Source: an uncultured Chthonomonas sp. (GTDB lineage: Bacteria > Armatimonadota > Chthonomonadetes > Chthonomonadales > CAJBBX01). Taken from it: a stretch of 64,000 nt of DNA. The stretch lies in the NCBI GenBank assembly GCA_903885605.1, contig CAISJD010000192.1, positions 65,063 through 129,062 on the forward strand. The letters are read 5' to 3'. A program made the position numbers and the translations under genes. Every line of letters starts with the position of its first letter. Within the stretch, counting starts at the first letter, position 1. Below are positions 28,572 through 46,941 of this stretch, piece after piece. The notes beneath the pieces were generated by a model. That model had not been told where the DNA came from and searched no databases. It worked only from the letters and a program-made list of their open reading frames with translations.

Positions 28572-29045
28572 GTGGCTGGATCATTGTTCAGTGCAAAGGC
28601 ATATTACACAGCCGCCAATGAGCACCTTGGTCTCTCACTGCGGCTTGTCAACTCCGGTGAGCACCTCGCTGCGCACTACTTCGCCGGGGTGGCGGCGGAG
28701 GCTGTGTTGCGTGCCCACGTGGTGCGCATCGGGCACGCATTCACCAGCAACCATAGCATCTGGTATCTCGCGGGGCTAGCAGGCCTCACCAGTGATGGTC
28801 GCCGTGATGGTACGGATGACCTTCAGGCCGCACTGATCGAGATCGAGACGCGTTGGCGGGCCAACCACCGCTACCTGCCGCGCGAAGGTCTCCTTGCATA
28901 CCTGAACTCGACAGGCCTCGATTGGCGCGTTCGAGGTGACCGGGTCAAGTACAGCGCCACTCGAATGGTGGATATGGCCGGCACGGTTGTCGCAGAAGGG
29001 GCCCGCAAATGGAGCAAGTCGAACAACACGTTCGCGAGAGCATAG
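28572..29045 (+). CDS. HEPN-like small protein (putative RNase/partner)
   Basis: A 157-residue, mostly helical, cytoplasmic protein. GTG 28572 follows GGAGGGATGTA; the track start at 28461 reads from the GH29 end. The segment AKAYYTAANEHLGLSLRLVNSGEHLAAHYFAGVAAEAVLRA resembles the first helices of HEPN-type proteins, and ETRWRANHRYLP supplies an R-x4-H motif (R-WRAN-H), the usual HEPN RNase signature. The family call rests on this pattern alone. The next gene overlaps its last 37 nt, implying translational coupling. Base use is less GC-biased than the glycosidase genes around it, suggesting acquisition. Confidence 0.55.
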   Translation: MAGSLFSAKAYYTAANEHLGLSLRLVNSGEHLAAHYFAGVAAEAVLRAHVVRIGHAFTSNHSIWYLAGLAGLTSDGRRDGTDDLQAALIEIETRWRANHRYLPREGLLAYLNSTGLDWRVRGDRVKYSATRMVDMAGTVVAEGARKWSKSNNTFARA

Positions 29046-29266
29046 CGCGTCGTTTTCCCGGCGCCGAGATACATGTGGGGTGGGACCCCGACATGGAGAA
29101 GGTTGCCGGGTATGTGCTGTGGTCGGGGTTCGAGCGCAAGAAGTTCATCACACGCCAGAAGCTGCTCTTTGGCGCTCTACGCAAGGACCTCGGGGACGAA
29201 GCCCAGCACGTGTCCATCATCTTCGCCCATACGCCCAACGAGTACGAGGTGATGAGCGCCTGCTAG
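29009..29266 (+). CDS. Small 85-aa protein overlapping the HEPN-like gene
   Basis: An acidic/basic mixed alpha/beta protein with no signal peptide. It begins inside the preceding gene (37-nt overlap), preceded by AAGGGG. By eye it is related to the 80-aa product at 46699: both start with an amphipathic V..xIRE/D helix and share a V-x-G-x-V ... F ... RQ-x2-L-x3-L-x3-LG-x2-A-x2-V ... P pattern. I do not recognise a named family; a BolA/KH-like small fold is only a guess. The coupled arrangement suggests a partner or antidote to the HEPN-like protein. Confidence 0.6.
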   Translation: MEQVEQHVRESIARRFPGAEIHVGWDPDMEKVAGYVLWSGFERKKFITRQKLLFGALRKDLGDEAQHVSIIFAHTPNEYEVMSAC

Positions 29267-29327
29267 CTGCCACGCCTTCGAGTGCAGCTGCCGCAGCCCG
29301 TGCCCTGCCATGGAAGGAGTGCCGGCG

Positions 29328-31427
29328 ATGTGGTTCCTCACGTCATGTGTGGCTCTGATGGCTGCGGGGCTTCTGCTCGCGGAGGCCGGGGCCGCGCCTC
29401 CTCCTCGCACGCTCTACGTCTCGCCGGTCGGGCGCGATAGCTGGTCGGGCACGCTTCCGGCCGCCAACCGGGCCCGCACCGACGGCCCCTTCGCCACGCT
29501 GGAGCGCGCCCGCGACGCCATACGACAGGCCCGGGCGCATGGCTCGGCCGGCGCGGCCACGGTTCTGCTGCGCGGCGGCGTCTACCGGCCGGCGCGGCCC
29601 TTCGTGCTGCGCCCCGGCGACTCCGGCACGGAGCGCTCGCCGGTGACCTACGCCGGCTACCCCGGCGAGGAGCCCGTCCTCAGCGGCGGGGTGCCGATCA
29701 CCGGTTGGCGGCGCATGCCGGATGGGCTATGGAGCGCTCCCGCGCCCGCCGCGGCGGCCAAGCGCGGCATCCGGCAGCTGTTCGTCAACGGCGCCCGCCG
29801 GGAGCGCGCGAGGTGGCCCGCCAAGGGCTGGTTCACCGTGGCCGGGGCCGCCGACCACAAGACCACCAACTGGGCCGCGTCGCTGGGCGGGAGGCCGGAT
29901 GACGAGGTCGCCCGCCGTTCGTTCCGGTTCCGTCCGGGCGACATCCGGGCCGACTGGGCGGGCGCCGACAACGTGGAGGTGGTCGTGCTCCAGTTCTGGA
30001 TGGCGGCTCGCCTGCGCATCCATGCCGTGGACGAGGCCTCGTCCACCGTGCTCTTCACCGGCGGCAGTTGGCGGCCCCTCACCTGGTCGTTCGGCTACAC
30101 CATCGACAACGCGCCGCAGGGCCTCGTCACGCCCGGAGCCTGGCGATGGGATGCGGCCACACGTACGGTGCTCTACCACCCCATGCCGGGCGAGGAGCCG
30201 GACACGGCCGAGGTGGTGGCTCCGCTGACCGACGAGTTGGTGCGGATCGAAGGCCGGCCGAACGGACCCGAGCGGGTCCACGACGTCACCTTCCGGGGCA
30301 TCACGCTGAAGCACACCGGGTGGCCGCTGCCTGCGGAGGGGTACGCGTTCACGCAGGCCGAGCTCGGAGCCCCATCGGCGGTGACCGCCGTGGGAGCGCA
30401 GCGTTGCCGGTTCGAGCGGTGCAAGGCGCAGCACCTGGGCGGCTGGGCCATCGACCTCGGCCGGGGCTGCCGCGACAACAGCATCGTGGGCTGCGACATC
30501 CGCGACGTGGGCGCCGGCTGCGTGAAGGTGGGCGAGGCCGCCGATCCCAAGCTCGACGCGGCGGAGGCCTGCGGCACGCTAATCTCCGACAACCGCCTGG
30601 CGGACGGATGCCGGGTCTACCTGGGCGCTCCGGCCATCTGGGTGGGGCAGAGCGGGCGCAACCGAATCTGCCACAACGAGATCACCGGGCAGTTCATGTG
30701 GGCGGTGTCGCTTGGGTGGAACTGGGCCTACTTCCCGCTGAACCGGTCACGCGACAACATCGTGGAGCGCAACTTCATCCACGACCTCGGCACCGGCACG
30801 CTGGGCACGCACGGGGCGCTCTATTGCCTGGGCATCTCGCCGGGCACCGTGCTGCGCGGCAACCTGATCCGGGGCGTCCACGCCACCGAGGCCTGGGGCG
30901 CCGGCGAGGGGATCATCCTCGACAACGGATGCTCCGGCATCCTGGTCGAGGACAACGTGGTGGTCGATGCCGTCTCCGGCGGCTGGGGATGCAACTTCAA
31001 CTGTTACGGAAACATCATTCAGAATAACATATTCATCAATGGGACGCGGTATCAGCTCACTCGCTACGGCGACGCGCCGGACGGGCCGCCGCCGCCCAAC
31101 GGCGAGGTCTTCGCCCGGAACATCGTGGTATGGCGCGACGGCCCGCTCTTCAACGAGAAGGACTGGTGGTCATTCGCCACGCTCTGGAACTGCAACCTCT
31201 ACTGGCGGACCGACGGCGATCCGGTCCGCTTCATGCGCTACAGCTTCGACGAATGGAAGGCCAAAGGGCTGGACCGCGACTCGCTGATCGCGGACCCGCT
31301 CTTCGTGGCGCCGGAGAAGGGCGACTACAGGCTCAAGGCGGGTTCGCCGGCGCTGACGTTGGGCTTCCGGCCCATCGACCTCCGCGGCGTCGGCCCCAGG
31401 AAGCCCGGCAAGGCCGCTACTCCGTAA
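29328..31427 (+). CDS. Secreted right-handed beta-helix protein, GH141-like
   Basis: A 699-residue exported protein. ATG 29328 (AAGGAG 8 nt upstream) gives a signal peptide ending near EAGAAPPP. The mature start LYVSPVGRDSWSGTLP...PFATLERARDAIR is typical of GH141 (fucosidase/xylanase) and related parallel beta-helix carbohydrate enzymes. An N-terminal domain (VLSGGVPITGWRR, LFVNGARRERARWP) precedes the helix repeats (about 330-690: HDVTFRGITLKHTGW, NIVERNFIHDLGTG, NIIQNNIFINGTRY). Predicted role: cleavage of a branched plant- or algal-type polysaccharide. Its stop overlaps that of the convergent neighbour by 11 nt. Confidence 0.8.
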   Translation: MWFLTSCVALMAAGLLLAEAGAAPPPRTLYVSPVGRDSWSGTLPAANRARTDGPFATLERARDAIRQARAHGSAGAATVLLRGGVYRPARPFVLRPGDSGTERSPVTYAGYPGEEPVLSGGVPITGWRRMPDGLWSAPAPAAAAKRGIRQLFVNGARRERARWPAKGWFTVAGAADHKTTNWAASLGGRPDDEVARRSFRFRPGDIRADWAGADNVEVVVLQFWMAARLRIHAVDEASSTVLFTGGSWRPLTWSFGYTIDNAPQGLVTPGAWRWDAATRTVLYHPMPGEEPDTAEVVAPLTDELVRIEGRPNGPERVHDVTFRGITLKHTGWPLPAEGYAFTQAELGAPSAVTAVGAQRCRFERCKAQHLGGWAIDLGRGCRDNSIVGCDIRDVGAGCVKVGEAADPKLDAAEACGTLISDNRLADGCRVYLGAPAIWVGQSGRNRICHNEITGQFMWAVSLGWNWAYFPLNRSRDNIVERNFIHDLGTGTLGTHGALYCLGISPGTVLRGNLIRGVHATEAWGAGEGIILDNGCSGILVEDNVVVDAVSGGWGCNFNCYGNIIQNNIFINGTRYQLTRYGDAPDGPPPPNGEVFARNIVVWRDGPLFNEKDWWSFATLWNCNLYWRTDGDPVRFMRYSFDEWKAKGLDRDSLIADPLFVAPEKGDYRLKAGSPALTLGFRPIDLRGVGPRKPGKAATP

Positions 31428-33999
31428 CCACCGTCTCGGCCAGCAGGGGGGTGCCCAGGTGGACCACCGCCTTACCGGGCACCTCCATGGCAAACGCCCA
31501 ATGGTTCTCGAAGCGGCCCGGCCGGTGGGTCGCGTAGGGCAGGCGGAGCTTCACGCTGCCGCCGGGAGGAACCGGAGGGCCGGCGGGCAGGTCGATGCGG
31601 CTCTCCTTCGCCGCGTCCCACTGCCGCGTGAGGGCCAGGTGGAGCCGGTAGGCTTGCGCGGCCGTGTCCCAGGCCTGGGAGCCCGTGTTGCGTATCGTGA
31701 TCTCCAGTTCGGCCTGCTCGCCGAGGCGCATTCGGGCCGGCGCCGACGCCGTGACCTCCGCGTCCCAGAGCCGGGGCTTCGAGATCGCCTTGGCGTTGTC
31801 CTCATTGGACGGTCGGCTCCGGCGGCCGCGTGCGTCCAGCGCGACCACGTGGTACCAGTAGGCGTGGTCGCGCAGGGGCGGCGTGTCCAGGACCATCGTG
31901 GCACGGGTGGTGGCGACGGCGGTGGCCTTGGCGCCGAAGGCATCCGCCCGCATGAGCACGTACCGGTCGGCGACGCCGCCTTCGGGCGCGAACCACTGGA
32001 CGCGGATGCGCCCCACCTCGCGGTGCGCCACCAGCTTGCGCGGCGCCTGGAGCTCCACGGCGCGGACCACGGCGACCGTCGCAGGTCCGAATGCGCGTCC
32101 CTTGGCGTGGGCCAGCCGCAACAGGTGCGCGGTCTGCCCGGCGCAGGCGGCTCGGGGCAGGCGCAGCAGGTCCGCCGTCGATGCGCCGGGGACCAGGTCG
32201 TCGCGAAGCGTCCAGAGCGTGCGTCCGCCGATGCGGATATCCACGCAGCCCGCCGTCCATGCGGCCGTGCCCGTGTTCGTCACCGTGGCCGCCACCGAGG
32301 CGATCTCACCGACGCCGCACTCGGCCGGCGCGTCTGGCAGCGCGATGGCTCCGTCGATGGCCGGCCGCGCGCGCACGATGCGGACGGTGGTGAAAGGCGC
32401 CCCGGTGCTGACCGGCAGCCGCAGCGAAGAGGCCGCGACGACCGGGGTCCGCCTCACGGGCCCCGGCGTCTCCGCACCGGTCCGGTAGTCGATGCCGGCT
32501 CCCTGCGTCCGCACCTCCAGCGGCGTTCCGGCGACCCAGCCGGTGGCGGCGAGATCCAGCAGGACCGTCGTGGGACCGGGCTGGTCTAGCTGCACCAGCG
32601 CCACCGCCTCATCGCGGCATCGCAGGTAGGTTGCCAGCAGGCCCGGCGCCTTGGCCCTGGGTTCGGCCGCGAACCGCGCAGGCAGCCGCACGGCCTCAGC
32701 TCCGGGCGGCGACGCCTGCGCCCAGAAGCGGTAGACCGACCAGATCGGATGGTAGGGGTCGGCCTGGGCCGAGGTCCATCCGGGCCGCAGGTCGATGACG
32801 GCGCCGTCGTCGGTCTCGCTGCCGAAGACGATGTTGGTGCCGGGCACCTTGTGCTTGGCCGGCCAGATGTCCCACCAGTCCTGGTACTTGCGGAGGCCCC
32901 AGCGCCATACCCATCCGCCGCCGGGGGCGAACTCCGACGCCCAGAACATGAACTTCGAGCCACCGAGGCCGAAGAACTCGGCCATGGATCGGTTGAAGCG
33001 CCACGCCTGCCCCTCCTCGGAGAGCGGCGGCTGGGGATGCGGCGCGGGATCGGGCTTCCACGGCGGAGGCGCGGCCTTGACCTGCCGGCTGTCCAGCGCC
33101 CACTGGAAGGAGCTCTCGCCTGATCCCACCTCGACCTGGCGCTGTCCCAGTTCGTCCAGCACCGAACGGATCGAGGTGAAGTAGTCCTTCAGGCCCGCAT
33201 AGGGGTCCGCGCCGAAGACGTCCGCAAAGTAGTTCATGGGGACGTCGTCATACTTCCCCTTGCAGGCCGTCAGGTTGTCGCGGGTCCAGCGGTCCATCTG
33301 GTCGCGGTTGTTCAGCGCGCCGTAGACGTTCATGCCGCCGATGCCGGGCGTGGCGCCGCTGATGCTGATGAACGTGCCCGGATCGGCTCGCTTGAAGGCA
33401 TCGTAGCCCGTGCGGTAGATCTCCTGCACATGCTTGATATCCATGCCCGGCCAGTAATCGCGCATGTTGGCCTCGCCCTGCAGCAGCCAGAGCGCCACGC
33501 GGCCCCGGTAGCGGCGGCCCAGCAGGTCGCAGAGGTGCATCCAGTCGTCGGCGTCCACGGGGCCCAGCACCAGGTTGGTGTCCTTGGGCCAGTCCCTGTC
33601 GTTGGTGTAGGGGGTCGACCAGGAGAGGTCGATCTTCACCTTCATGCCGCGCCGGAGGCACTCGTCCACGATGGCGTCCATCTCCGCCATCCCCTTCTCG
33701 TCGCCCTTGTAGCGCTCGAACTCGTACCACCAGTGCCAGAAGTCGGCATAGGAGATGCGCTTCAGGTCCTCGGGCATCTTCTCCGTGTAGTCCCAGAAGC
33801 TGGGCGCCACGTTGAGTATGCCGGCGCCGGTGGTGTTGCAGTCGGCGCGCTCGTGCAGGAAGTGGATGCCGAGCAGCACGTTGTCATGCGTCATGGCCCC
33901 TGAGTGCGGCGGGCCGGACGCCAGGGCGTGGGGCTTCGGGCAGAGCGCGATGGCCATGAGCATCACCTTTGCGATGAGTGAACGAACGGGACGAGACAT
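31417..33999 (-). CDS. Secreted clan-A-like glycosidase with FN3/NEW3-type modules
   Basis: An 860-residue exported protein. Start at ATG 33999 (GGGAGG 6 nt upstream), giving a signal peptide MSRPVRSLIAKVMLMAIALCP; the track's longer ORF begins in the divergent GH36 gene. Residues about 40-400 look like a GH5/GH39/GH42-type barrel: MKVKIDLSWSTPYTND, VALWLLQGEANMRDYWPG (candidate acid/base Glu) and QVEVGSGESSFQW (candidate nucleophile Glu). After a linker strand region come a NEW3-like domain (about 500-610), an FN3-like domain (APRKLVAHREVGRIRVQWFAP...) and another NEW3/CARDB-like domain. Exact family and substrate are not clear. Confidence 0.7.
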   Translation of the reverse strand: MSRPVRSLIAKVMLMAIALCPKPHALASGPPHSGAMTHDNVLLGIHFLHERADCNTTGAGILNVAPSFWDYTEKMPEDLKRISYADFWHWWYEFERYKGDEKGMAEMDAIVDECLRRGMKVKIDLSWSTPYTNDRDWPKDTNLVLGPVDADDWMHLCDLLGRRYRGRVALWLLQGEANMRDYWPGMDIKHVQEIYRTGYDAFKRADPGTFISISGATPGIGGMNVYGALNNRDQMDRWTRDNLTACKGKYDDVPMNYFADVFGADPYAGLKDYFTSIRSVLDELGQRQVEVGSGESSFQWALDSRQVKAAPPPWKPDPAPHPQPPLSEEGQAWRFNRSMAEFFGLGGSKFMFWASEFAPGGGWVWRWGLRKYQDWWDIWPAKHKVPGTNIVFGSETDDGAVIDLRPGWTSAQADPYHPIWSVYRFWAQASPPGAEAVRLPARFAAEPRAKAPGLLATYLRCRDEAVALVQLDQPGPTTVLLDLAATGWVAGTPLEVRTQGAGIDYRTGAETPGPVRRTPVVAASSLRLPVSTGAPFTTVRIVRARPAIDGAIALPDAPAECGVGEIASVAATVTNTGTAAWTAGCVDIRIGGRTLWTLRDDLVPGASTADLLRLPRAACAGQTAHLLRLAHAKGRAFGPATVAVVRAVELQAPRKLVAHREVGRIRVQWFAPEGGVADRYVLMRADAFGAKATAVATTRATMVLDTPPLRDHAYWYHVVALDARGRRSRPSNEDNAKAISKPRLWDAEVTASAPARMRLGEQAELEITIRNTGSQAWDTAAQAYRLHLALTRQWDAAKESRIDLPAGPPVPPGGSVKLRLPYATHRPGRFENHWAFAMEVPGKAVVHLGTPLLAETVVTE

Positions 34000-34222
34000 G
34001 GTCGGCCTCCCGCAGAACAGGGCTCGGGCACGAGCGCGCCGCCCTCCCCCGCGTCCTCGGTGGTGTACGAGGGCAACTACGCCGGGGGGCCATCGGCCTC
34101 CTGCCTGGGCGCGCGAGTTCCGGATCGCGGCCAGGCATGCAGGGCATCCGCGCCTCGCTGTAGAACTCACTGCCGGCCCGCGCGCGCCTGATCGCGTCCG
34201 GGCCGGTAACGAGGTGCGAACC

Positions 34223-36730
34223 ATGCTCAGCCTGGCCCTGCTTGCGGCACTGGAGTGTATGCCCATGTCCCTGCCCGCTTCCGATCCGTTCGCCTCCATC
34301 GCGTCGACCACGCGGCAGTGGGCCAGGTCGGCATTCGCCGAGGCGAAGGCTGCGCCCGCCCCGGCTTGTCGGCTCGTCGTCGTCCACGAGGATGTGGCGG
34401 GCGATACGCACCTGCGCAGGGGCGCCGGCGGCGGACCCATGCGGCTGGGCGACCGGACGTTCGCCCACGGGATCGGCGTCAACTCGCACAGCGTCCTGCG
34501 CGTGGAGCTTGATGCGCCGGCCCGCACGTTCACGGCCCTGATCGGTCTGGACCGCAACGTGGACAACACGGCGGCTTCGGTCCGCTTCCATGTCCAGGTG
34601 GCGGGCAAGGACCTCTTCGCCACGCCCGTGATGCGGGCCGGCGAGACGCCTGTGCCGATCGCTGTGCAGATGCACGGCGCCCGATCATTTGATCTCATCG
34701 TGGACGACGGCGGCGATGGGCGCGGATGGGACCAGGGCGACTGGGCCGACGCGCGCGTCACGCTTGAGGACGGCCGAAGCGTCTGGCTCGACAGCCTCGC
34801 CGGCCGGGCCGCGATGAAGCCGGGGCTGCCGTTCTCGTTCACGTATGGCGGACGGCCCTCCTCCGAACTGATCGGCGGCTGGCGGCGCGAGGTCCGCGTC
34901 GTCGCCTCGCCGACCGCCGAGAAGCGGACGGTGGTCCTGACCGATCCCGAGACCGGGCTGGAGGTCACAGCCGAAGCCACGGTCTACCTGGACACGGCCG
35001 GCGCCGACTGGACGCTCCACTTCCGCAACACCGGCGCGGCCGACACGCCGATCCTGGAGGAACTCCGGGCCGTCGATGCCTCGGTGCGGCTGGGCCTGGG
35101 CGCCGACGTTTCGCTGCACCGGCTACGCGGCAGCGCCCATGGGCCCCTGAGCTGGCAGCCGATCGACGAGAAGGTTGTCTCGGGAGCGACGGCCCGCCTC
35201 GTCAGCGCCGACGGCCGCACCGCGGCCGAGGTGGGGCCCTTCTTCACGGTGGACTGGGGAACTGGCGGCGTGGCCACCGCGGTGGGTTGGTCCGGCCAGT
35301 GGCAGGCGGCCGTCGAGCGTCCCACGGGCGGCGACCTGCGCGTTTCGGCCGGTATGCAGGGCGTCCATGTGCGCCTCAAGCCCGGCGAGGCGGTCCGTTC
35401 GCCGCGCATCCTGCAGGTCTACTACGCCGGGGCCGACATGGAGACGGCGCACAACGCGCTTCGGCGGACGATGCTGGCCCACGTGCTGCCGAGGATCGAC
35501 GGCACGGTGGTCACGCCGCCGGTCGTCCACCTGAGCACCTCGTTCTACGAGATGAACGCCACCACGGAGCAGAACCTGACGGCGCACCTGCGCTCAGTGG
35601 AGGGCCTGGGCTTCGAGGTCTTCTGGCTGGACGCCTACTGGACGCGGGGCGGCTTCCCGGAGGGGATGGGCAACTACGCCCTGCCCCTGAGCAGCGCCGA
35701 GCCGCCGGACCGGTTCCCGCATGGCCTGAAGCCCATGGGCCGGGCGGTGCGGCAGGCCGGCATGAAGTTCCTCATGTGGTTCGAGCCGGAGCGCGTGGCG
35801 TCGGGCACCATCATCGCCAAGCAGCACCCGGAGTGGGTCCTCTCGCCCGCCGGCGACGGCAGCGGCCTCCTGGACATGGGCAACCCGGCCGCCCGGGAGC
35901 ATGTCACCCGCTACCTGGCCGAAGCCGTCCGCGAGTACGGCCTGAGCTGGCTCCGGTTCGACTTCAACATCAACCCGCTTCCTTACTGGCGGCACGGCGA
36001 CCGCACCGATCCGGACCGAGCCGGCCTGACGGAAATACGCTACGTCGAGGGCGTCTACCGCATGTGGGACGACCTGCGCCGCATGTTCCCGCACCTGGCC
36101 ATCGACAACTGCGCCAGCGGAGGCACCCGGATCGACCTGGAGACCTGCTCCCGATCCATCCCGCTCTGGCGCACGGACGACACCATCGGCCCGCTCTTCG
36201 ACCTCGACTTCAACGAGGCGGCCATTCGCAACCAGATCATGACCGACGGCCTGAGCCCCTACGTGCCCTACAGCGTCAGCGGCATGATGGGCTCCAGCCC
36301 CTACCTGTTCCGCAGCGGCTGCAACGCCGGGATCGCCTTCGCCGAGGATGTGCGCCCGGCCCGCTACCCGAAGGCCGAGCTGAAGCGCGCCATTGCCGAG
36401 GCCAAGCGGCTGCGGCGTTACCACGCGGGCGACCTGTACGTCCAGACCGCCACCGATCACGACCCGAGGAACTGGTCGGTCCGGCAGTACGACCTGCCCC
36501 AGTCGGGCGAGGGCATGGTGGTCGCCTTCAGGCGGCACCTGTCGCCGTTCTGCGCGTTCGACTGCACGCTCAGGGGGATCGACCCCAAGGCGACCTACGC
36601 CGTCCGCCGCTCGGCGGGATACACGCGCGGCAAGGCGGAGACGATGACCGGCGTCCAACTGGCCAAGCTGCAGGTCGCCATCCCGGCGAGGCCCGGATCG
36701 GTGGTGGTGGAGTACGCGCGGCTGAAGTAG
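34223..36730 (+). CDS. Secreted NPCBM-GH36 alpha-galactosidase
   Basis: An 835-residue protein. ATG 34223 (GAGGTG upstream) gives a short hydrophobic N-terminus. Residues about 50-195 are an NPCBM carbohydrate-binding module (RTFAHGIGVNSHSVLRVEL ... RSFDLIVDDGGDG). The GH36 portion follows: a beta-sandwich, then the barrel with FLMWFEPERVASGT, LSWLRFDFNINP (nucleophile Asp about 580), DNCASGGTRIDLE and PLWRTDD (acid/base region Asp about 652-653). It should release alpha-linked galactose with retention. It is divergent from the clan-A glycosidase (223 bp between starts), so they may share control. Confidence 0.92.
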   Translation: MLSLALLAALECMPMSLPASDPFASIASTTRQWARSAFAEAKAAPAPACRLVVVHEDVAGDTHLRRGAGGGPMRLGDRTFAHGIGVNSHSVLRVELDAPARTFTALIGLDRNVDNTAASVRFHVQVAGKDLFATPVMRAGETPVPIAVQMHGARSFDLIVDDGGDGRGWDQGDWADARVTLEDGRSVWLDSLAGRAAMKPGLPFSFTYGGRPSSELIGGWRREVRVVASPTAEKRTVVLTDPETGLEVTAEATVYLDTAGADWTLHFRNTGAADTPILEELRAVDASVRLGLGADVSLHRLRGSAHGPLSWQPIDEKVVSGATARLVSADGRTAAEVGPFFTVDWGTGGVATAVGWSGQWQAAVERPTGGDLRVSAGMQGVHVRLKPGEAVRSPRILQVYYAGADMETAHNALRRTMLAHVLPRIDGTVVTPPVVHLSTSFYEMNATTEQNLTAHLRSVEGLGFEVFWLDAYWTRGGFPEGMGNYALPLSSAEPPDRFPHGLKPMGRAVRQAGMKFLMWFEPERVASGTIIAKQHPEWVLSPAGDGSGLLDMGNPAAREHVTRYLAEAVREYGLSWLRFDFNINPLPYWRHGDRTDPDRAGLTEIRYVEGVYRMWDDLRRMFPHLAIDNCASGGTRIDLETCSRSIPLWRTDDTIGPLFDLDFNEAAIRNQIMTDGLSPYVPYSVSGMMGSSPYLFRSGCNAGIAFAEDVRPARYPKAELKRAIAEAKRLRRYHAGDLYVQTATDHDPRNWSVRQYDLPQSGEGMVVAFRRHLSPFCAFDCTLRGIDPKATYAVRRSAGYTRGKAETMTGVQLAKLQVAIPARPGSVVVEYARLK

Positions 36731-36757
36731 GCCGAGCCCGCGCGTACCCGATCGGCG

Positions 36758-38319: not shown

Positions 38320-38919
38320 TTGGCGAAGCACGGAATACCCGGTGGCCCTTGTCTGTTGTTCGTTGACTACGAGAATGTCCAGACCCTCGACCTGGCGGCT
38401 CTGCCGGGCGACTGGCGGGTACGGGTGTTCGTTGGAAGCGCCCAGAAGAGCATCTCAATCACGACGGTGCTGGCAGCGCAGGCGTTGGGGCCGCGCCTTG
38501 AGTGGGTGCGAAGCGTCGATGGCGGCCCGAACGCCCTGGACTTCATCATCACGTACAGCCTTGGCGCCGAACTCGCCAGGTCGCCGGGCACGCCGTGCGT
38601 CGTCCTATCCAAGGACCGGGGCTATGACGCGCTCCTGAGCTACCTCAAGGCGCAGGGGCACACCTGTCGGCGGGTGAACAGCCAACTGGAGCTAGCCCCG
38701 CCGGCAGCCGCGGCGAACGTGCCCGACCTCAAGCGCATCACCGACAGCCTCGTCAAGGCCGGCAAGGCGCGTCCGCAGAAGAAGGAGACCCTGGCGAAGC
38801 ACATCGCCAACGTACTGCAGAAGCCGTTCAACGGCCCGGAGGTCCAGACGCTGATCGACATCCTCTTCCGCGATGGCTTTGTCAGCGAAACCGCCGGGCG
38901 GCTGTCGTACAGCCTGTAG
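38320..38919 (+). CDS. PIN/NYN-like RNase-fold protein with C-terminal winged-helix-like tail
   Basis: A 199-residue cytoplasmic protein. The PIN/NYN fold occupies about 10-115: LLFVDYENVQ (metal-binding Asp about 16 and Glu about 18), GPNALDFIITYSLG with Asp, and VVLSKDRGYDALLSYLK with another acidic pair, matching the four-acid metal site of these nucleases. Residues 140-199 (KKETLAKHIANVL...EVQTLIDILFRDGFVSE...LSYSL) resemble a small helix-turn-helix. No ATG is available in frame; TTG 38320 with GGAG 9 nt upstream is the likely start. It is a single gene, with its own promoter and terminator. Probable RNA processing or decay role. Confidence 0.75.
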   Translation: MAKHGIPGGPCLLFVDYENVQTLDLAALPGDWRVRVFVGSAQKSISITTVLAAQALGPRLEWVRSVDGGPNALDFIITYSLGAELARSPGTPCVVLSKDRGYDALLSYLKAQGHTCRRVNSQLELAPPAAAANVPDLKRITDSLVKAGKARPQKKETLAKHIANVLQKPFNGPEVQTLIDILFRDGFVSETAGRLSYSL

Positions 38920-38939
38920 TCGCCAGGCTCCGTGGTGCG

Positions 38940-38969: not shown

Positions 38970-38992
38970 GTTCGGTCCCCTCCGATGCACCA

Positions 38993-39022: not shown

Positions 39023-39024
39023 TA

Positions 39025-39042
39025 GGTCGATCGGTCAGATCG
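39025..39042 (+). promoter_or_regulatory. Candidate TetR operator
   Basis: GGTCGATCGGTCAGATCG contains the inverted pair CGATC-ggtca-GATCG and the CGATCGGTC core often found in TetR-family operators. It overlaps the expected transcription start of the operon that ends with a TetR gene, so binding should block transcription. Confidence 0.5.
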
Positions 39043-39103
39043 GGGGCTCAATGGGTCCCGACGGCCGGTTCATCCAGTCTTGCCGGCATGGAGGGCACAC
39101 GGC

Positions 39104-40096
39104 ATGGGCGACGAGGCGTTCGATAGGCGTGAGTTTCTCGGGAAGGCGGCCAGGGTGTCGGCGTTGCTCGCCGCGGCGCCGGCGCTTGGGCTCGACGCGG
39201 CGGCGGCTCCCAGGGGGCCGCGGATCTCCTACTACAAGGACGGCCGGATCCACGTGACCGAGGTCGGCAAGCCGGAGGGTGCGCCCGTTACGACCGGGCA
39301 CTGGGACTTCAAGCCGTCATGGTCGAAGACCGGCAACAGGCTCGTCTTCTTCCGAAGGCTGAAAGACGATCCCGATGTGGCGAAGTGGATCACCCAGGTC
39401 TGCGTCATCGGCATCGGCGGCGATGGGTTCCACGCATTGACGGATGGAACACGCACGGAGTTCAACCCCACCTGGACGCGCGACGGGAGGAACACACCTG
39501 TCTGGAACCGGAGGAACCCGGTGACGGGGACCTACCAGATCATGCAGGGCGCCGTGGGCGGCAAGCCCGGCGAGGAGGTCGCCCTCACCGACGAGCGCCG
39601 CCATGCCTGGGTCTACTCGAGCCTCAGGGACGGTCGCCTTCTGGTTTCGTGCGACCACCCGCAGCAGGGGTACCGGTACTTCCTCATGGCGCGCAAGCCG
39701 GGCGGCGCGCACTCCTACGAGCCCATCGACTGCGACCTCGCTCGGAAGGGCCTGCTGGATCGGGTGAGCGTATCGCCGGACGAGACGCAGGTCTGCTTCG
39801 AGTTCCAGAACGGTTTCGAGTACAAGGACCCGGGCCGCACGCTCTACGTCGCGGGCTTTGACGCCGGGAAGCGGACCATCACAGGACCTCGGCCCATCGC
39901 CAACGAGGAGGGCAAGCCCTACTGGATCGCCTACCCGCGCTGGATCGATGGAGGAACGGCGATCGTCTACCACTCGCACGAGACGGGCATCGGCCGCCTC
40001 CACGCCTACACGCTGCGCGACGGCTCGACCAGGCAGGTCTCCACCGCGCCGGGCTCGGACTACCGGTACCCGCACGGGGAGGCCGCGCCGTGCTGA
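39104..40096 (+). CDS. Tat-exported PD40/WD40-like beta-propeller protein
   Basis: A 330-residue protein. ATG 39104 (GGAGG 9 nt upstream) gives a twin-arginine signal (DRREFLGKAARVSALLAAAPALG). The mature part has TolB/PD40-type propeller strands: HWDFKPSWSKTGNRLVFFR, EFNPTWTRDGRNTPVWNR, LDRVSVSPDETQVCFEF and IAYPRWIDGGTAIVYHSHE. No catalytic motif is evident. It is the first gene of an operon with a Tat-type aldo-keto reductase (22 bp downstream) and TetR. The shared Tat route suggests the two exported proteins work together in the periplasm, but the substrate is unknown. Confidence 0.82.
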   Translation: MGDEAFDRREFLGKAARVSALLAAAPALGLDAAAAPRGPRISYYKDGRIHVTEVGKPEGAPVTTGHWDFKPSWSKTGNRLVFFRRLKDDPDVAKWITQVCVIGIGGDGFHALTDGTRTEFNPTWTRDGRNTPVWNRRNPVTGTYQIMQGAVGGKPGEEVALTDERRHAWVYSSLRDGRLLVSCDHPQQGYRYFLMARKPGGAHSYEPIDCDLARKGLLDRVSVSPDETQVCFEFQNGFEYKDPGRTLYVAGFDAGKRTITGPRPIANEEGKPYWIAYPRWIDGGTAIVYHSHETGIGRLHAYTLRDGSTRQVSTAPGSDYRYPHGEAAPC

Positions 40097-40118
40097 CCCA
40101 TCGATGGAAGCAGAGCGT

Positions 40119-41168
40119 ATGAGCGCAGGTCTGGGTCGCCGGGAACTCCTGGCAGGCACGGTGGGCGCCGCCGTCGCGGGCAGCATGGCCCTTGCGGCGG
40201 GCTGCAGCAGTGAAGGGGCCGACAGGGGCGAAGGGGCCGCCAACGGTAAGGCATTGCCGCCGCTCCCCGCGCGCAAGCTCGGCAAGACCGGGCTGAAGCT
40301 CCCCATCCTCGGGTATGGCGGCGCGGCGTTGCCGAGCACCTGGGGAAATCCGCTCTCCATCGAGGAGCGCGTCCTCCTGGTGCGCTATGCCTACGACAGG
40401 GGCATCCGGTACTTTGACACCGCCGTGAACTATATGGAAAGCCAGCCCATCATCGGCGAGGCTCTAAGGGACCGTCGCAAGGATGTCTGCCTCGTCACCA
40501 AGGTGGAGTGCACCGAGCCGGGCGAGGTCCGCCGGTCCGTCGAGCGCTCGCTGAAGGAGCTTCAGACGGACCACGTGGAGATCCTCGTGATGCACGGAAC
40601 GCCGGGCATCGAGCAGATGAGCGTGCGGCAGGCGATGGCGGTCCACGCCGAACTGGTGAAGCTCCGCGACGAGAAGGTCATACGGTTCATCGGGATGTCG
40701 GCTCACGGCTACTTCGACAAGGCGCTGACCCTCATCAACACCGGCGGGTTCGACCAGTGCATGCTGTCGTTCGGGTACGTTCCGCGGGGCCTTGACCAGA
40801 TCTGGTCCGATCGGCAGACCCGGCTACGCGATGACTGCATCGCCAGAGCGGACCAGAAGGGCATGGGCATCGTCGCGATGAAGGTGGTCGGAGCCGGCAT
40901 GCTGGGCTCCTGGTCGCAGACCATCGTCCCGGGCTATGACCCGCAGAGCCTGGCGAAGCTGCCCGGCGCGGCCATTCGGTGGGCGCTCCAGGACCGGCGG
41001 ATCGACCTCCTGTGCATCGGCATGCGCCTCAAGGAGGAGATCGACGCCAATATCAAGACCGTGGCAGGCAAGCACGCCTATACAGACGATGATCGTCGGC
41101 TGTTGTCGGAGTTCGCCGTGAGCCTCTACCGGAGTGATGCCGTGAAGGCCATGAGGATCGAGCGTTGA
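40119..41168 (+). CDS. Tat-exported (lipo)protein aldo-keto reductase
   Basis: A 349-residue protein. The start is ATG 40119 (GGAAG upstream). A twin-arginine signal (GRRELLAGTVGAAVAG) ends in ALAAGC, which could also be a lipobox. The AKR barrel has the catalytic tetrad in order: Asp and Tyr in YFDTAVNYMES, Lys in LVTKVE, and His in ILVMHGT. Oxidoreduction of a carbonyl/alcohol with a nicotinamide cofactor is expected. Export by Tat fits a protein folded with its cofactor; periplasmic AKRs of this sort are common in Planctomycetota-like genomes. It lies between the propeller gene and TetR. Confidence 0.87.
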   Translation: MSAGLGRRELLAGTVGAAVAGSMALAAGCSSEGADRGEGAANGKALPPLPARKLGKTGLKLPILGYGGAALPSTWGNPLSIEERVLLVRYAYDRGIRYFDTAVNYMESQPIIGEALRDRRKDVCLVTKVECTEPGEVRRSVERSLKELQTDHVEILVMHGTPGIEQMSVRQAMAVHAELVKLRDEKVIRFIGMSAHGYFDKALTLINTGGFDQCMLSFGYVPRGLDQIWSDRQTRLRDDCIARADQKGMGIVAMKVVGAGMLGSWSQTIVPGYDPQSLAKLPGAAIRWALQDRRIDLLCIGMRLKEEIDANIKTVAGKHAYTDDDRRLLSEFAVSLYRSDAVKAMRIER

Positions 41169-41821
41169 CGCGGCCACCATGCTGGAAACCGGGCATGCCG
41201 CCGGCTGCCAGGCTGCGCGACAAGGGTGAGCTTTCGTTCATTGAGAAGGCCCGGCGCGCCCAGATCGTCGAGTGCGCCATCGAGACGATCGCGTCCGTCG
41301 GTTGCGCTCGGGCGTCGCTGGCGCAGATCGCCGAGCGCGCCGGCATCAGCAAGGGCGTGATCTCGTACCATTTCGCCGGGAAGGCGGAGCTGATCGAGCA
41401 GGTCGTCGATGCGGTCTACGCGGCCGCGGGCTCGTTCATGGCGCCCCGCGTCGAGCATGAGCCGACCGTTGCCGGGATGCTGCGGGCCTACATCGAGTCG
41501 AACCTCCAGTTCATGCGGTCGCACCGGACGCATATGCTGGCGCTCATCGACATCTGGGCCAACTTCCGCCCCAGGGACGGCGAGCCGTCGCCCCTTGCGG
41601 CGCTTCACCAGACCGGCCTGACGCACCTCGAGGGGCTTCTGGCCTATGGGCAGGAGCAGGGCGAGTTCCGCCGGTTCGCCCCGTGCGTGATGGCCCTCGT
41701 CATCCGCAAGGCGATCGACGAGGTGGCCTATCAGATCGCTACGCAGGACGATTTCGACCTGGACGCTTACGCGCACGAGCTTGTGGTCCTCTTCGATCGG
41801 GCCACTAGCCGGGACGAGTAG
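41165..41821 (+). CDS. TetR-family transcriptional regulator
   Basis: A 218-residue regulator. The N-terminal helix-turn-helix (about 25-75) reads AQIVECAIETIASVGCARASLAQIAERAGISKGVISYHFAGKAELIEQV, a canonical TetR DNA-binding domain; the helical remainder would bind ligand. The first available start is TTG 41165, overlapping the preceding stop by 4 nt with GAGGAT upstream, suggesting coupling; ATG 41195 is a good alternative. It is the last gene of the three-gene operon and probably represses it through the palindrome at 39025-39042. Confidence 0.92.
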   Translation: MTRPPCWKPGMPPAARLRDKGELSFIEKARRAQIVECAIETIASVGCARASLAQIAERAGISKGVISYHFAGKAELIEQVVDAVYAAAGSFMAPRVEHEPTVAGMLRAYIESNLQFMRSHRTHMLALIDIWANFRPRDGEPSPLAALHQTGLTHLEGLLAYGQEQGEFRRFAPCVMALVIRKAIDEVAYQIATQDDFDLDAYAHELVVLFDRATSRDE

Positions 41822-41927
41822 CGAAACCCGGAGGGCCTGACCGGGGTACTAGTTGCGTACGGCCGCGCTGGACGCGGTGTGAGGCTCGGGCTCGTCATCG
41901 TCGAGGAGGCCCGGCAGGGAGAGTAAT

Positions 41928-43262
41928 ATGCGTGTGCCGGTCCTCTGTGTCGTGGCTGCGGCCTGCCTGTGCCTCGCGGTCGGTCCCGCGGCGGTGGCCC
42001 AGAACCCTCCCGCCCCTCCCGCCGTGGCCCCAGCGGCACAGCCCGCCGCCGAGCGGGTGATCGTGGACATCGGCGCCGAAGGCGTCTCGGTGGCCGCGGC
42101 CGGGGTCGACGCGCATGAGTTCTTCAACCGGTACGCCCGCAAGACCGGCCTGCAGATCATGATCGACGACACGGTCAAGCGGACCATCACGGTGAACCTG
42201 ACCCACCGCAAGGCCGGCGATATCCTCGACACCGTGGTCAGCGCCTACGGCCTCGCCTGCCGCCAGGTGAAGGGCATCTTCATGATCAGCGAGGGCATCC
42301 CGAAGACGCCCTCCTCCTACCTCCTCAGCGATATCGACTCGATCAGCACGCAGTACGTCCTGGCGCCCAACGCCAAGTCGCTCCTGCCGGTCTTCCTGCA
42401 GGACCACGTGAAGACGAACCCCGAGCAGAACTCCGTGATCCTCTCGGCGCCACCGGACGTGCTTCGCAAGTTCCGCGAGGATATCCGCCAGTTCGACATC
42501 CCCGCCTCGCAGATCATGATCGACGTGCTCATGGTGGAGTTCACCGACAGCGGAGCCCGCGAGTTCTCGCTGAAGTGGGACTGGACCAACGCCACGCGGC
42601 AGGTCTCCGTGGACACGCCGGCAGGCAGCCTCTTCTACCGGACGCTGGTGACGCTTCCCGACGCCTTCAGCGCGGGCCTCAAGTCGTTGGTGACGCAGGG
42701 CAAGGCCCGCGTGAAGGCCAACCCGCGCATCGCCACCGTGAGCGGCCAGAAGGCGGGCATCTTCATCGGCAAGCAGCGCTACCTGAGCACGCCCGTGGCG
42801 ATCACCGGTGGCTCCGACGGCTCGATGATCCAGACCAACTCCATCGACGCCGGCGTCCGGCTGGACATGACGCCCTTCACCGGCGGCGAGGGCGAGATCA
42901 TCATCGATATCCACCCGGAGATCAGTGTCCTCAGCGCCCTGGACCCAAAGACCGGCCTGCCCGACCGTAGCACGCGCCGGGCCAACACCACCGTCCGCGT
43001 CCGCGACGGCGAGACGGTGATCCTCGGCGGCCTCACGCAGCAGGAGACCATCAGCACCCGCACGCGCATGCCGATCCTCGGCGACCTGCCTCTCCTCGGT
43101 CCGCTCTTCCGCTCCACGGACTCGAAGGAGTCCAGCACCGAGATGGCCATCTTCATCACGCCGCGCATCCTCTCAACCACCGGCCACCTGCCCGCCGAGG
43201 AGGAGAAGAAGCTGCGCGAGCGCTTCCTGCAGGGCGACGCGCCCAAGGGCAAGGCGCCGTAG
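41928..43262 (+). CDS. Secretin-domain protein 1 (GspD/PilQ superfamily)
   Basis: A 444-residue exported protein (signal about 1-24). An STN/N0-like region (about 55-110: HEFFNRYARKTGLQIMIDDTVK) is followed by a spacer and the secretin domain (about 190-430): NPRIATVSGQKAGIFIG, GEIIIDIHPEIS, VRVRDGETVILGGLTQQE and the signature RMPILGDLPLLGPLFRS. It likely forms or contributes to an outer-membrane ring. It is shorter than a full PilQ/GspD because few N-domains are present. GGGAGAG lies before the ATG. It is first of three consecutive secretin genes; only 1 nt separates its stop from the next start. Confidence 0.88.
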   Translation: MRVPVLCVVAAACLCLAVGPAAVAQNPPAPPAVAPAAQPAAERVIVDIGAEGVSVAAAGVDAHEFFNRYARKTGLQIMIDDTVKRTITVNLTHRKAGDILDTVVSAYGLACRQVKGIFMISEGIPKTPSSYLLSDIDSISTQYVLAPNAKSLLPVFLQDHVKTNPEQNSVILSAPPDVLRKFREDIRQFDIPASQIMIDVLMVEFTDSGAREFSLKWDWTNATRQVSVDTPAGSLFYRTLVTLPDAFSAGLKSLVTQGKARVKANPRIATVSGQKAGIFIGKQRYLSTPVAITGGSDGSMIQTNSIDAGVRLDMTPFTGGEGEIIIDIHPEISVLSALDPKTGLPDRSTRRANTTVRVRDGETVILGGLTQQETISTRTRMPILGDLPLLGPLFRSTDSKESSTEMAIFITPRILSTTGHLPAEEEKKLRERFLQGDAPKGKAP

Positions 43263-43263
43263 C

Positions 43264-44961
43264 GTGACCTGGAGGCGGCTCTTCCCGGCGGCCCTGTTGC
43301 TCCTCGCCTGCGCGCCCGCGCACGCCCAGCGCGTCTACTGCAACATCACGTCCATCGAATCGGTGCGGCGCGGCAACGCCGTGCAGGTGACGATCCGGGC
43401 CGACGGCCTCATGCGCGTCGTGGCCGATCCGGGCATCTTCTTCGACCTGGAGGCGGCGCAGAAAGGGCAGTGGGACAAGCTCCACCGGCTCATCGACACG
43501 GTGCCGATCTGGGTCACCAACGCCCGGTCGCAGGTGGGCAGCTTCGCCAACGTGGGCGTCTACCCGGTGAGCCATGTGGAGGCTTCGGTACCCGTGGGCG
43601 CCCAGGACGGCATCGGCCTGGAGCTTCGCGTCAGCCTGCTGACGCCGGGCGTCGTCTCGCTCTTCAAGTCCGGCAACGAGAACTGGGAGACCGGCGGCAA
43701 CGAGCTGCCGGTGCCCAAGATATCGCTCGAGGTGAGCCAGGACCAGCGCTCCATCGTGATCCTCGTGACCAGCGACCGCCGCACCCAGCCGCCCGCCGTG
43801 CGGCGCAAGGCCGCGCCCGGCGATCCGCACGAGCTGGAGGTGACGGGCGGGCCGGAGCGCATCTCGGTGCAGGCCCTGAACGGCGACCTGCGCGAGCTGC
43901 TGGCGCGCATCGGGGCCGCGGCGGGCACGACGATGCTGGTGGACCCCGGCGTCGACCGGCAGGTGAGCATGCGGCTGGACGACGCGCCCGTGGCCGACGC
44001 CCTGGACGCCATCGCGATGGCCTACGGCCTCGCCCTGGAGCGCCGGGACGGGACCGTGCGCGTGGCGGACGGCGGCTCCGCGGGCATGGCCGCCTACGAC
44101 GTGGAGGCGCTGGAGACCGTGCGCGTGCGGCACGGCTCGGCGGTCGCCATCCGCAACAGCCTGCCGGAGTTCCTGCTCCGCTACATCCACGCCAACCCGG
44201 GTGAGAACGCGCTCAGCGTCTTCGGGCCGCCGAACCTGGTGCGGAGGCTGCGTGAGGACATCGGCCGCCTGGACAGGCCCGTCGCCCAGATCGAGGTAAC
44301 CGCCACCACCGTGGAGTACAACCGGTCCGACGACCTGGAGGCGCTGCCCGAGCTACGGGGACTGGGGGCCTTCGGCGACCTGGCGGCATCGCCCGACGCC
44401 GCAGGCATCCGGTACACCAGCCTCGGCGCGCTCGAGGCGGACTTCAGCGCCCGGCTGCGAGCCCTGGGCAGCCAGGGGCGGGTGCGCATCAAGTCCGAGC
44501 CCAAGGCGGTCGTCCTCAGCGGGAAGTCCGCCTCGCTGTTCGCGGGGCAGCAGAAGTACATCAAGGCGATCACCTACAACACGTTTGTGAATGCCTACGA
44601 TACGGTCCTGATGCCGGTGGAGGTGGGCGCGCGCCTCACGGTATCGGCCACGGCAGGCGGCGGCGGCTCGATCCTGCTGGGCGTGATGCCGCAGGTGAGC
44701 AACATCGTTGAGCTTGACCCGGCAACCGGCGCTCCCACCGTCGCCACGCGCATCGCCGTGGCGCAGATGCGCATCCAGGGCGGCGAGACCCTCTTCATCG
44801 GCGGCCTCGACATCGCCCAGGACGAGCCCGCGCGCACTCGGATACCCCTGCTGGGCGATCTTCCGCTGATCGGCCGGCTGTTCACTCGCCACGGCGCTCG
44901 CCGAGCGGAGACCCGATTGGGTGTCTTCGTTACGGCCCGCGTGCTTCCGGACGCCACTTAG
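43264..44961 (+). CDS. Secretin-domain protein 2
   Basis: A 565-residue exported protein starting with GTG 43264, 1 nt after the previous stop. Signal peptide about 1-21, then an N-terminal beta-domain shared with the third paralogue (RVYCNITSIES...VQVTIRADGL versus AFCNIQSIDA...VQISIKADGV), which resembles AMIN-type domains of PilQ. An STN-like segment (MRLDDAPVADALDAIAMAYGL) and a secretin domain follow, ending with GGETLFIGGLDIAQ and IPLLGDLPLIGRLFTR. Spacing implies co-translation with its neighbours. The domain order (AMIN-like, N0, secretin) fits a PilQ-like role, but the pilus machinery is not encoded here. Confidence 0.88.
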   Translation: MTWRRLFPAALLLLACAPAHAQRVYCNITSIESVRRGNAVQVTIRADGLMRVVADPGIFFDLEAAQKGQWDKLHRLIDTVPIWVTNARSQVGSFANVGVYPVSHVEASVPVGAQDGIGLELRVSLLTPGVVSLFKSGNENWETGGNELPVPKISLEVSQDQRSIVILVTSDRRTQPPAVRRKAAPGDPHELEVTGGPERISVQALNGDLRELLARIGAAAGTTMLVDPGVDRQVSMRLDDAPVADALDAIAMAYGLALERRDGTVRVADGGSAGMAAYDVEALETVRVRHGSAVAIRNSLPEFLLRYIHANPGENALSVFGPPNLVRRLREDIGRLDRPVAQIEVTATTVEYNRSDDLEALPELRGLGAFGDLAASPDAAGIRYTSLGALEADFSARLRALGSQGRVRIKSEPKAVVLSGKSASLFAGQQKYIKAITYNTFVNAYDTVLMPVEVGARLTVSATAGGGGSILLGVMPQVSNIVELDPATGAPTVATRIAVAQMRIQGGETLFIGGLDIAQDEPARTRIPLLGDLPLIGRLFTRHGARRAETRLGVFVTARVLPDAT

Positions 44962-44970
44962 GAGAACCCC

Positions 44971-46638
44971 ATGCGAACCCATCCGGCGCTGCTGCTGATC
45001 GTCGCCATGACCGCCCTGGCCTCGGCTTGCCTTGCCCAGACCGCGGCGTTCTGCAACATCCAGAGCATCGACGCCCAGCAGCTGAGCAACGGGGTGCAGA
45101 TCAGCATCAAGGCCGACGGCGTGCTGGACTGGATGCCGGAGAACAACGACTGGGGCATGATCTACGGCGGCGGCGCGCGGCAGAAGGTGAGCATCGTCTT
45201 CACCAACGCCAAGTCGCAGGTCGGCAAGACCTTCATCGACGTCAGCAAGTACCCGGTCAGCTACCTCCAGCTCGCGGTGCCGCAGAGCGCCAAGGAGGGC
45301 GTCGGCGTCAACCTGGTGGTGGCCATGTACGAGCCGGCCTCCATCCGCTTCGCCAAGAGCACCGACCAGCAGAGCGTCATCATCACCGTGAACAGCGAGC
45401 GGAACACCGCCGCGCGGGCGACCTCGAACGGCTCGGCCGCGGCAGGGGCGGCGGCGGCGGGCGGCATGGATGTCAGCATGAAGGCGGGGCTACTGAGCAT
45501 CGACGCGACCAAGGCCAAGCTCCTGGCCCTGCTGGCCGCCGTATCGGTGACCGCCAAGGCCGACATGGTGATCGACGACTCGGTGAAGGATCGCGACGTC
45601 TCGGTGTCGCTGGACGGCATGGCGGTGGACGACGCCGTGGCCGGGCTCGCCGCCTCGTGCGGGCTGGCGGCCTCCAAGAGGGACGGCATCTGGACCATCT
45701 GCGACGGCACTCCCGTGGACCTGGCCACCTACCGCCTGTCGGGCACCGAGTCCTATCGCATGAAGTACATCAAGGCCCAGACCGCCTCCGGCCTGCTGCC
45801 GACGTTCCTGTATAGCTTCCTGCACGTCAACGAGGCGCAGAACGCCGTCGTGGTCACCGCGCCGGGGCAGATGCTGGACAAGATCCGCTCCGACTTCGGC
45901 AAGGTCGATGTGGCCCCGCCGCAGATCATGATCGAGGCGCTGGCCGTGGAGGTGGCGTCGACCTCCGACCTGACCGCCTCGCTGGCCACGGCGTTCCGGA
46001 ACGACCGCATGACGGCCGGGACCAACTCGGCCACGGGCGACATCACCTACAGCACCATCGGCACGCTCCCCACCGACTTCCAGGCGCTCCTCAAGGCGCT
46101 CGTCTCCGATGGCAAGGCGAAGGTACGGGCCAACCCGCGCATGGCGGCGGTGAACGGCCAGGCCGCCGACATCTTCATCGGCCAGACCAAGTTCATCAAG
46201 GTCGAGGTCACCTCCTACGGCGGCAAGCAGGAGCGCATCCAGGGCGTCGACGTGGGCGTGAAGCTGGAGGTGCGGCCCTGGACCGGCGGCAACGGCGAGA
46301 TCACCGTGACGCTGAAGCCCGAGGTGAGCAACATCAGCGAGCAGGAGCGCGAGACCGGCCTCCCGGTCCTCTCCACCCGCCGAGCCGAGACGACGGTCCG
46401 CGTGAAGGACGGCGAGACGATCATGATCGGCGGCCTCGTGCAGAAGCAGGAGTACCAGACCCGCACGAAGGTGCCGATCCTGGGCGACATCCCGGTCCTC
46501 GGCATCCCCTTCCGCAGCCGCAAGACCAGCACCGTAGACTCCGAGCTGGTCATCTTCGTAACCCCCCGCCTCCTGACCGACCGAGGCCGCCTCAAGGACG
46601 AAGCCGCCGAGGCCAAGGTAAGGCGGCTGCTGAAGTAA
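44971..46638 (+). CDS. Secretin-domain protein 3
   Basis: A 555-residue exported protein: signal about 1-23, AMIN-like N-domain, a short Ala/Gly-rich linker, STN-like domain (KLLALLAAVSVTAKADMVIDDSVKDRDVSVSL) and secretin domain (NPRMAAVNGQAADIFIG, VRVKDGETIMIGGLVQKQE, VPILGDIPVLGIPFRS). The preceding stop TAG is part of the ribosome binding site (TAGGAG-AACCCC-ATG), strong evidence of coupling. It resembles protein 2 more than protein 1 in its N-terminus but is closer to protein 1 in the secretin core, as expected of an old tandem duplication. Confidence 0.88.
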   Translation: MRTHPALLLIVAMTALASACLAQTAAFCNIQSIDAQQLSNGVQISIKADGVLDWMPENNDWGMIYGGGARQKVSIVFTNAKSQVGKTFIDVSKYPVSYLQLAVPQSAKEGVGVNLVVAMYEPASIRFAKSTDQQSVIITVNSERNTAARATSNGSAAAGAAAAGGMDVSMKAGLLSIDATKAKLLALLAAVSVTAKADMVIDDSVKDRDVSVSLDGMAVDDAVAGLAASCGLAASKRDGIWTICDGTPVDLATYRLSGTESYRMKYIKAQTASGLLPTFLYSFLHVNEAQNAVVVTAPGQMLDKIRSDFGKVDVAPPQIMIEALAVEVASTSDLTASLATAFRNDRMTAGTNSATGDITYSTIGTLPTDFQALLKALVSDGKAKVRANPRMAAVNGQAADIFIGQTKFIKVEVTSYGGKQERIQGVDVGVKLEVRPWTGGNGEITVTLKPEVSNISEQERETGLPVLSTRRAETTVRVKDGETIMIGGLVQKQEYQTRTKVPILGDIPVLGIPFRSRKTSTVDSELVIFVTPRLLTDRGRLKDEAAEAKVRRLLK

Positions 46639-46686
46639 CAGGAAGGGCGGGGAGAGGGGGGCGATCAGAGCCCGACGCGCTAGGGG

Positions 46687-46692
46687 TACAAT
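46687..46692 (+). promoter_or_regulatory. -10 box (TACAAT) implying a leaderless start
   Basis: TACAAT ends 6 nt before ATG 46699, so transcription would begin at or next to the A of the start codon. There is no ribosome binding site between them. No clear -35 is visible 16-18 nt upstream. Confidence 0.45.
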
Positions 46693-46698
46693 CCGGGC

Positions 46699-46941
46699 AT
46701 GAAAGACCAAGTCGTGGAGGCAATCAGGGACGTCTTTGAGCCGAGTATGATCGATGAGAGTGCGCTCACCGAAGTGGATGGCCATGTTTACGGCACCGTG
46801 CAGGTGATCGGATCGCCAGTGTTCGATGCGCTCGATGATGTGCGCCGCCAGCATCGCCTCTGGGACAAGCTCATCGCAGTGCTGGGTGGCGATGCTCTGA
46901 ACGTCGGCCCCGTCGTTCTTCAGCCTGGCCGGCGTGGCTAG
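46699..46941 (+). CDS. Small 80-aa protein, partner of DUF2971 gene
   Basis: A short alpha/beta cytoplasmic protein with no signal peptide. It shares an alignable pattern with the 85-aa product at 29009 (an N-terminal helix, a V-x-G-x-V strand, F then RQ-x2-L-x3-L-x3-LG-x2-A-x2-V and a terminal proline strand). It has no ribosome binding site and a -10 box 6 nt upstream, so it may be translated from a leaderless mRNA. The following DUF2971 gene starts 8 nt before its stop. Base use is less GC-rich than the secretin genes. Family unknown to me. Confidence 0.6.
   Translation: MKDQVVEAIRDVFEPSMIDESALTEVDGHVYGTVQVIGSPVFDALDDVRRQHRLWDKLIAVLGGDALNVGPVVLQPGRRG

Follow-up and report, generated by a model that had tools for sequence, protein, structure and literature searches.

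A divergent BolA-like small-protein family paired with HEPN or DUF2971 genes in Armatimonadota: candidate toxin-antitoxin-like modules

In a stretch of 64,000 nucleotides from an uncultured Chthonomonas sp. (contig CAISJD010000192.1, positions 65,063 to 129,062; the whole stretch is called the window and window coordinates count from its first letter), two two-gene units were found, each consisting of a gene for a small BolA-like protein of ~80-90 amino acids (aa) and an effector gene. The first small protein, P1, is encoded in a coupled arrangement downstream of a HEPN gene and the second, P2, upstream of a DUF2971 gene, which is where the initial annotation had placed them (Table 1). The source genome (G000, 5.6 Mb) belongs to Armatimonadota. 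Sequence comparison supports P1 and P2 as members of one small-protein family standing beside two unrelated effectors, and the units are predicted, with a probability of about 0.55, to be two-gene toxin-antitoxin (TA)-like or abortive defence modules in which the BolA-like protein neutralises or regulates the effector.

The initial annotation had aligned P1 and P2 by eye and proposed a single family with a shared pattern at the same spacing. The core of the pattern (RQ-x2-L-x3-L-x3-LG-x2-A-x2-V, 20 residues) is exact in both proteins, but the spacing outside the core differs, the distance from VxGxV to F being 3 residues longer in P2 than in P1 and the proline being shifted by one. BLASTP of P1 against P2 gave no match, and the local alignment of the two was at chance level (z = 1.0; 791 of 5000 shuffles scored as well). 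Kinship could not be proved from the by-eye alignment alone; with relatives included, the resemblance is far above chance. Single-sequence searches of 251 genomes returned matches in 24 genomes for P1 and in 8 for P2, and these separate searches converged on three loci (G210:C41, G011:C16 and G020:C69). The HEPN-coupled P1, used as query, also retrieved small proteins upstream of DUF2971 genes (L056, L057, L061, L062 and L069). When profiles were compared with HHalign, the HEPN-coupled members aligned with the P2 set (P2, L071 and L072) at a probability of 98.0%, with a score of 70.0 against 16.3 for the best of 50 column shuffles, and with the other DUF2971-coupled members at 99.4% (score 106.4), while column-shuffled controls stayed at scores of ≤21.7 and probabilities of ≤17.2%. 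The profile probability is thus far above background, and the single-family proposal was borne out both by this and by the meeting of the separate searches at the same loci.

A profile of the small-protein family (A6, 29 members) matched in 46 of 291 Armatimonadota genomes and in 35 of 156 genera. The survey of adjoining genes across the phylum, which the initial annotation had also called for, showed that among 64 loci 45 small genes directly follow a HEPN gene (25 of subtype HEPN1 and 20 of subtype HEPN2), 11 directly precede a DUF2971 gene, and 8 adjoin neither, some of the latter being near contig ends or weak matches. The gene order was invariant in the 56 paired members, with HEPN first or DUF2971 second and with reading frames overlapping or closely spaced. 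In the reverse search, for which the profiles had been built largely from coupled members, an adjacent small gene was present for 24/24 HEPN1 matches with E<1e-14 and for 11/11 DUF2971 matches with E<1e-50; the remoter relatives of either effector that were examined had none. On the family tree, which has few columns and weak inner support, partner types cluster (9 changes vs 33 in shuffles, no fewer than 3 being needed between the three types), and the DUF2971 partners fall in two groups. Judged from this tree, partner switching is real but rare, not free shuffling. The earlier idea of a small module swapped between unrelated effectors therefore holds in so far as one family stands beside two such effectors, but the partners were not freely exchanged and the family, being BolA-like, is not free of relatives.

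Outside the phylum, the searches covered plasmid, phage and viral collections and one pattern-based genome scan, and the small gene was not seen in the collections searched. The plasmid collection gave no match to the small proteins or HEPN1 and one weak HEPN match to HEPN2, and the viral contigs gave no HEPN match. The sole small-protein match in viral contigs (L079) was rejected by eye, as it lies inside a longer open reading frame resembling a phage structural gene. With the HEPN alignment, only three loci were found among general genome contigs, all of them in Armatimonadota.

Members of the HEPN fold are mostly metal-independent RNases. The window HEPN matched the HEPN1 profile at E=7.9e-55 and the Pfam HEPN family (PF05168) at 0.014, which is below the cut-off; the best relative reached 7.3e-7, and 10 of 12 HEPN1 members matched over the cut-off. 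The R-x4-6-H RNase motif is present, as R-x4-H, in the window HEPN and in most HEPN1 proteins (RWxxNHRY). HEPN toxins of the PF05168 type are known in TA and abortive infection (Abi) systems (PMC3710099). Like the MNT-HEPN and ParA-like ATPase-HEPN TA systems (PMC3710099), the present unit has two genes and combines a PF05168-type HEPN with a cognate partner, but its partner, encoded downstream of HEPN, is BolA-like where those systems have a nucleotidyltransferase or an ATPase. A HEPN1 relative (the HEPN of L051) matched a model of the PADLOC candidate PDC-M28A (2.2e-6), whereas the small partner matched no PADLOC model of that candidate. In the literature searched, mostly without subscription journals, no paper combining a BolA-like protein with HEPN was found, and the novelty is provisional. 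A further HEPN subtype (MNRSDFQ...YYLAGYAVECALKACI) was observed at L221:1477-2300, L223 and L224, followed by an overlapping gene for a different protein of 133-138 aa, with no Pfam match in the two such proteins scanned.

The window DUF2971 scored 35.4 bits against Pfam DUF2971 (PF11185; curated cut-off 22), 8/8 aligned members matched this family, and the window protein also matched the PADLOC candidate family PDC-S31 (1.5e-4). The domain and the motifs HYT, LND, QWRGY and E-x-E-x-R are shared with the wider DUF2971 family, which was found on 42 viral contigs and 154 plasmids; in the wider family, however, no BolA-like gene stands in front at the three plasmid loci examined or in the viral relatives, whereas in the close Armatimonadota subfamilies one always does (11/11). 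On the Agrobacterium fabrum plasmid pAt (L080), the qatC-qatD genes of the Qat anti-phage system are directly followed by a DUF2971 gene. On several viral contigs (L143, L146, L147, L151-L153 and L156), a short gene resembling an AlpA-type regulator (by eye) immediately precedes DUF2971, which suggests a prophage cargo site. No characterised DUF2971 activity was found in the literature covered, which held one mention of the family, in a genome reannotation.

The modules look mobile and patchy in distribution, as indicated by the 46 of 291 genomes and by comparison with congeneric genomes. In G136, a 423-bp stretch of unrelated DNA lies between the secretin gene (to window 46637) and the ankyrin gene (from 47965); it has neither a small gene nor DUF2971, and the site is empty for the P2 module. 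At the P1 site, the flanks of G000 and G136 are 88.6-91.5% identical while the HEPN gene is unalignable by BLASTN. Among three congeneric genomes, synonymous divergence (dS) was 0.8-1.7 in the HEPN and P1 genes vs 0.14-0.32 in the adjacent gene, and the ratio of non-synonymous to synonymous divergence (dN/dS) was 0.06-0.29 in the HEPN and P1 genes, a combination expected for exchanged but functional alleles; for P1 itself, dN/dS was 0.06-0.19, indicating purifying selection. A third family member in the window's genome (L074:4986-5225, contig C88) is an orphan in which most of the DUF2971 partner has been deleted relative to G096 (L111), and its small protein differs from the G096 relative by only 2 residues. 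A VapBC-like pair (named by eye) is located near this orphan on the other strand. The congeneric genome G096 carries four small-protein and DUF2971 modules (contigs C24, C64, C97 and C134, corresponding to L069, L072, L071 and L111) plus a P1-type module, and the DUF2971 reading frame on C134 is broken.

For both units, the predicted mechanism is restraint of the effector by the small protein. The two proteins would be made together via the overlapping reading frames, the overlap itself being seen in the sequence. The small protein would then bind the effector and keep it inactive, and may also bind its own operator or RNA with an inherited KH-like surface. If the small protein were lost or displaced, for example during phage infection, the effector would be released and growth would stop; the freed HEPN probably cuts RNA, as its R-x4-H motif suggests, and the freed DUF2971 would act on some target. 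Restraint is proposed because the effector subfamilies were not found without the small gene, which for its part does occur alone; no lone HEPN1 was present among 24. Two adjacent genes that by their layout appear to be co-expressed, as is typical of type II TA systems, were observed in 56 of 64 members. The occurrence of DUF2971 in conflict settings (viral contigs, plasmids, beside qatCD) is counted in favour of a TA or defence function, and an antitoxin role is what we infer for the small protein. We see about even odds that the ligand-less BolA-like proteins represent a new antitoxin or regulator class, paired with HEPN and DUF2971 in Armatimonadota, and that the modules form an undescribed modular TA or phage-defence system.

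Several observations weigh against this assignment. In many type II systems the antitoxin evolves faster than its toxin, whereas P1, with an identity of 76-87% vs 47-73% for HEPN, is the better conserved partner. The small gene comes second in the HEPN pairs, a less common position for an antitoxin, and the linkage was tested with profiles drawn largely from coupled members. The R-x4-H motif is incomplete in HEPN1 of L045, L050 and L052 (Q for H), and HEPN2 lacks it altogether, keeping only a conserved upstream His, as has been described for AF0298-like HEPN proteins (PMC3710099). In Foldseek searches with the AlphaFold (AF2) model of P2, the best matches were other alpha/beta folds, with BOLA3 at rank 44 (template modelling score 0.54). 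The top PDB match of the DUF2971 model was a tRNA 2'-phosphotransferase of the ADP-ribosyltransferase superfamily, which was not significant (E=0.35), and the comparison of DUF2971 with a viral library for this fold gave nothing significant; an ADP-ribosyltransferase-like fold for DUF2971 is only a guess from the model.

The chief rival to the antitoxin role, which we regard as possible but rather unlikely, is that the small protein is a nucleic-acid-binding adaptor or sensor: having recognised RNA or DNA through its KH-like surface, it would deliver or activate the effector, and the activity would require both genes. In agreement with such a role, the class II KH fold of BolA proteins includes a helix-turn-helix, and DNA binding is known for some of them (PMC6747721). 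The family has conserved basic residues (the R of the RQ motif, and an R in place of the histidine of BolA's SHF in 41 of 63 members), and an adaptor would also fit both the better conservation of the small protein relative to its HEPN and the failure to find the coupled effector subfamilies without it. However, small genes are in some cases retained where there is no effector, in one case with only 2 amino-acid differences from its relative after deletion of the DUF2971 body, and a lone adaptor would have no obvious use; the coupled, overlapping layout is also typical of TA pairs.

BolA has long been linked to iron-sulphur clusters and cell shape, by a mechanism that is not clear. In the PDB, the A6 profile had only BolA-family structures as its top matches (4pug, 3.6e-6; 2kz0, 2.2e-5; 1xs3, 5nfk, 2dhm and 3tr3). 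Pfam BolA (PF01722) was matched by 7 of 29 members (best 4.5e-5), while P1 and P2 taken singly gave no match in Pfam or NCBIfam. Against eight canonical BolA proteins, the family aligned by HHalign at 95.3% (score 46.9; shuffled maximum score 17.1, shuffled probability ≤2.8%). The AF2 model of P2 (predicted local distance difference test 84) shows the order alpha-beta-beta-alpha-beta, which is consistent with the BolA (class II KH-like) fold without being decisive. Of the structural comparison suggested by the initial annotation, P2 alone was modelled, and its model agrees with the family assignment but would not suffice on its own to identify the fold. The small protein probably descends from the BolA/class II KH-like group or from an ancestor in common with it.

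The C-terminal His of BolA is totally conserved and ligates the Fe-S cluster (PMC7538681). In the aligned column it was found in 1 of 63 family members (4 of 63 within 3 columns) compared with 6 of 6 BolA proteins, and other residues stand at each of the three conserved BolA histidines examined, with His retained by only 0-2 of 63 members. These alignments mark the family as BolA-like but divergent and without the defining Fe-S ligand; it is not filed as BolA, and the loss of the ligand implies that the small protein has been given a new task. It is very improbable that the family consists of ordinary BolA/IbaG proteins that work with monothiol glutaredoxin in Fe-S metabolism and have merely incidental neighbours. 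The family profile and several members do match BolA, with detectable homology to BolA/IbaG (PF01722), the same size, the FxG motif and the TPxE end in common. The invariant Fe-S histidine is nevertheless gone, for which reason a canonical BolA role was rejected; Cys is absent from 49 of 63 members; the canonical BolA sequences form their own branch on the tree (100/98); and 56 of 64 members adjoin one of two effector families, the neighbours observed being HEPN or DUF2971. Canonical BolA is itself nearly absent from Armatimonadota, with clear matches in 2 of 151 genomes and none in the window's genome. Least probable of all, and refuted by the profile comparison, is that P1 and P2 are unrelated and share their pattern by chance, since the chance-level direct comparison and the lack of a significant fold match for the P2 model are outweighed by the convergence of independent searches and by profile probabilities far beyond those of the shuffles.

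The genes of the two candidate TA-like modules are listed in Table 1. An SD-like (Shine-Dalgarno-like) aggaggg lies at 28560-28566, ahead of the HEPN start. The third-codon G+C of the module genes is ~0.66-0.79, below that of the neighbouring genes (~0.90-0.96), whose starts were assigned by a simple script. A -10-box-like TACAAT at 46685-46690 lies just 5' of the P2 start codon and would make the transcript nearly leaderless. Directly upstream of the P2 module, three tandem secretin-like genes occupy window 41928-46638, the first with a Pfam Secretin match of 3.6e-41. A PIN7-domain protein (window 38320-38919; Pfam 1.6e-19), likely an RNase, is unrelated to the modules.

Table 1. Coordinates of the module features in the window
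Feature	Position	Strand	Remarks
HEPN effector gene, 157 aa, subtype HEPN1	28572..29045	+	GTG start; AHYFAGVAAE and RWRANHRY (R-x4-H) motifs
P1, BolA-like small partner, 85 aa	29009..29266	+	37-nt overlap with HEPN 3' end; family profile E=4.2e-31
P2, BolA-like small partner, 80 aa	46699..46941	+	upstream of DUF2971; family profile E=4.4e-16
DUF2971 effector gene, 324 aa	46934..47908	+	GTG start; 8-nt overlap with P2 stop; Pfam DUF2971 E=2.9e-8; profile E=1.6e-87
P2-DUF2971 module segment	46638..47964	.	module missing from the corresponding site of the congeneric G136

The profile of the small-protein family is ready for use in finding further modules of this kind. If the TA-like or defence assignment is true, a BolA-like branch without the metal ligand, tied to conflict-type effectors, would represent a second life for the BolA fold, and a lead to function would be gained for DUF2971, which is widespread on plasmids and in viral contigs.

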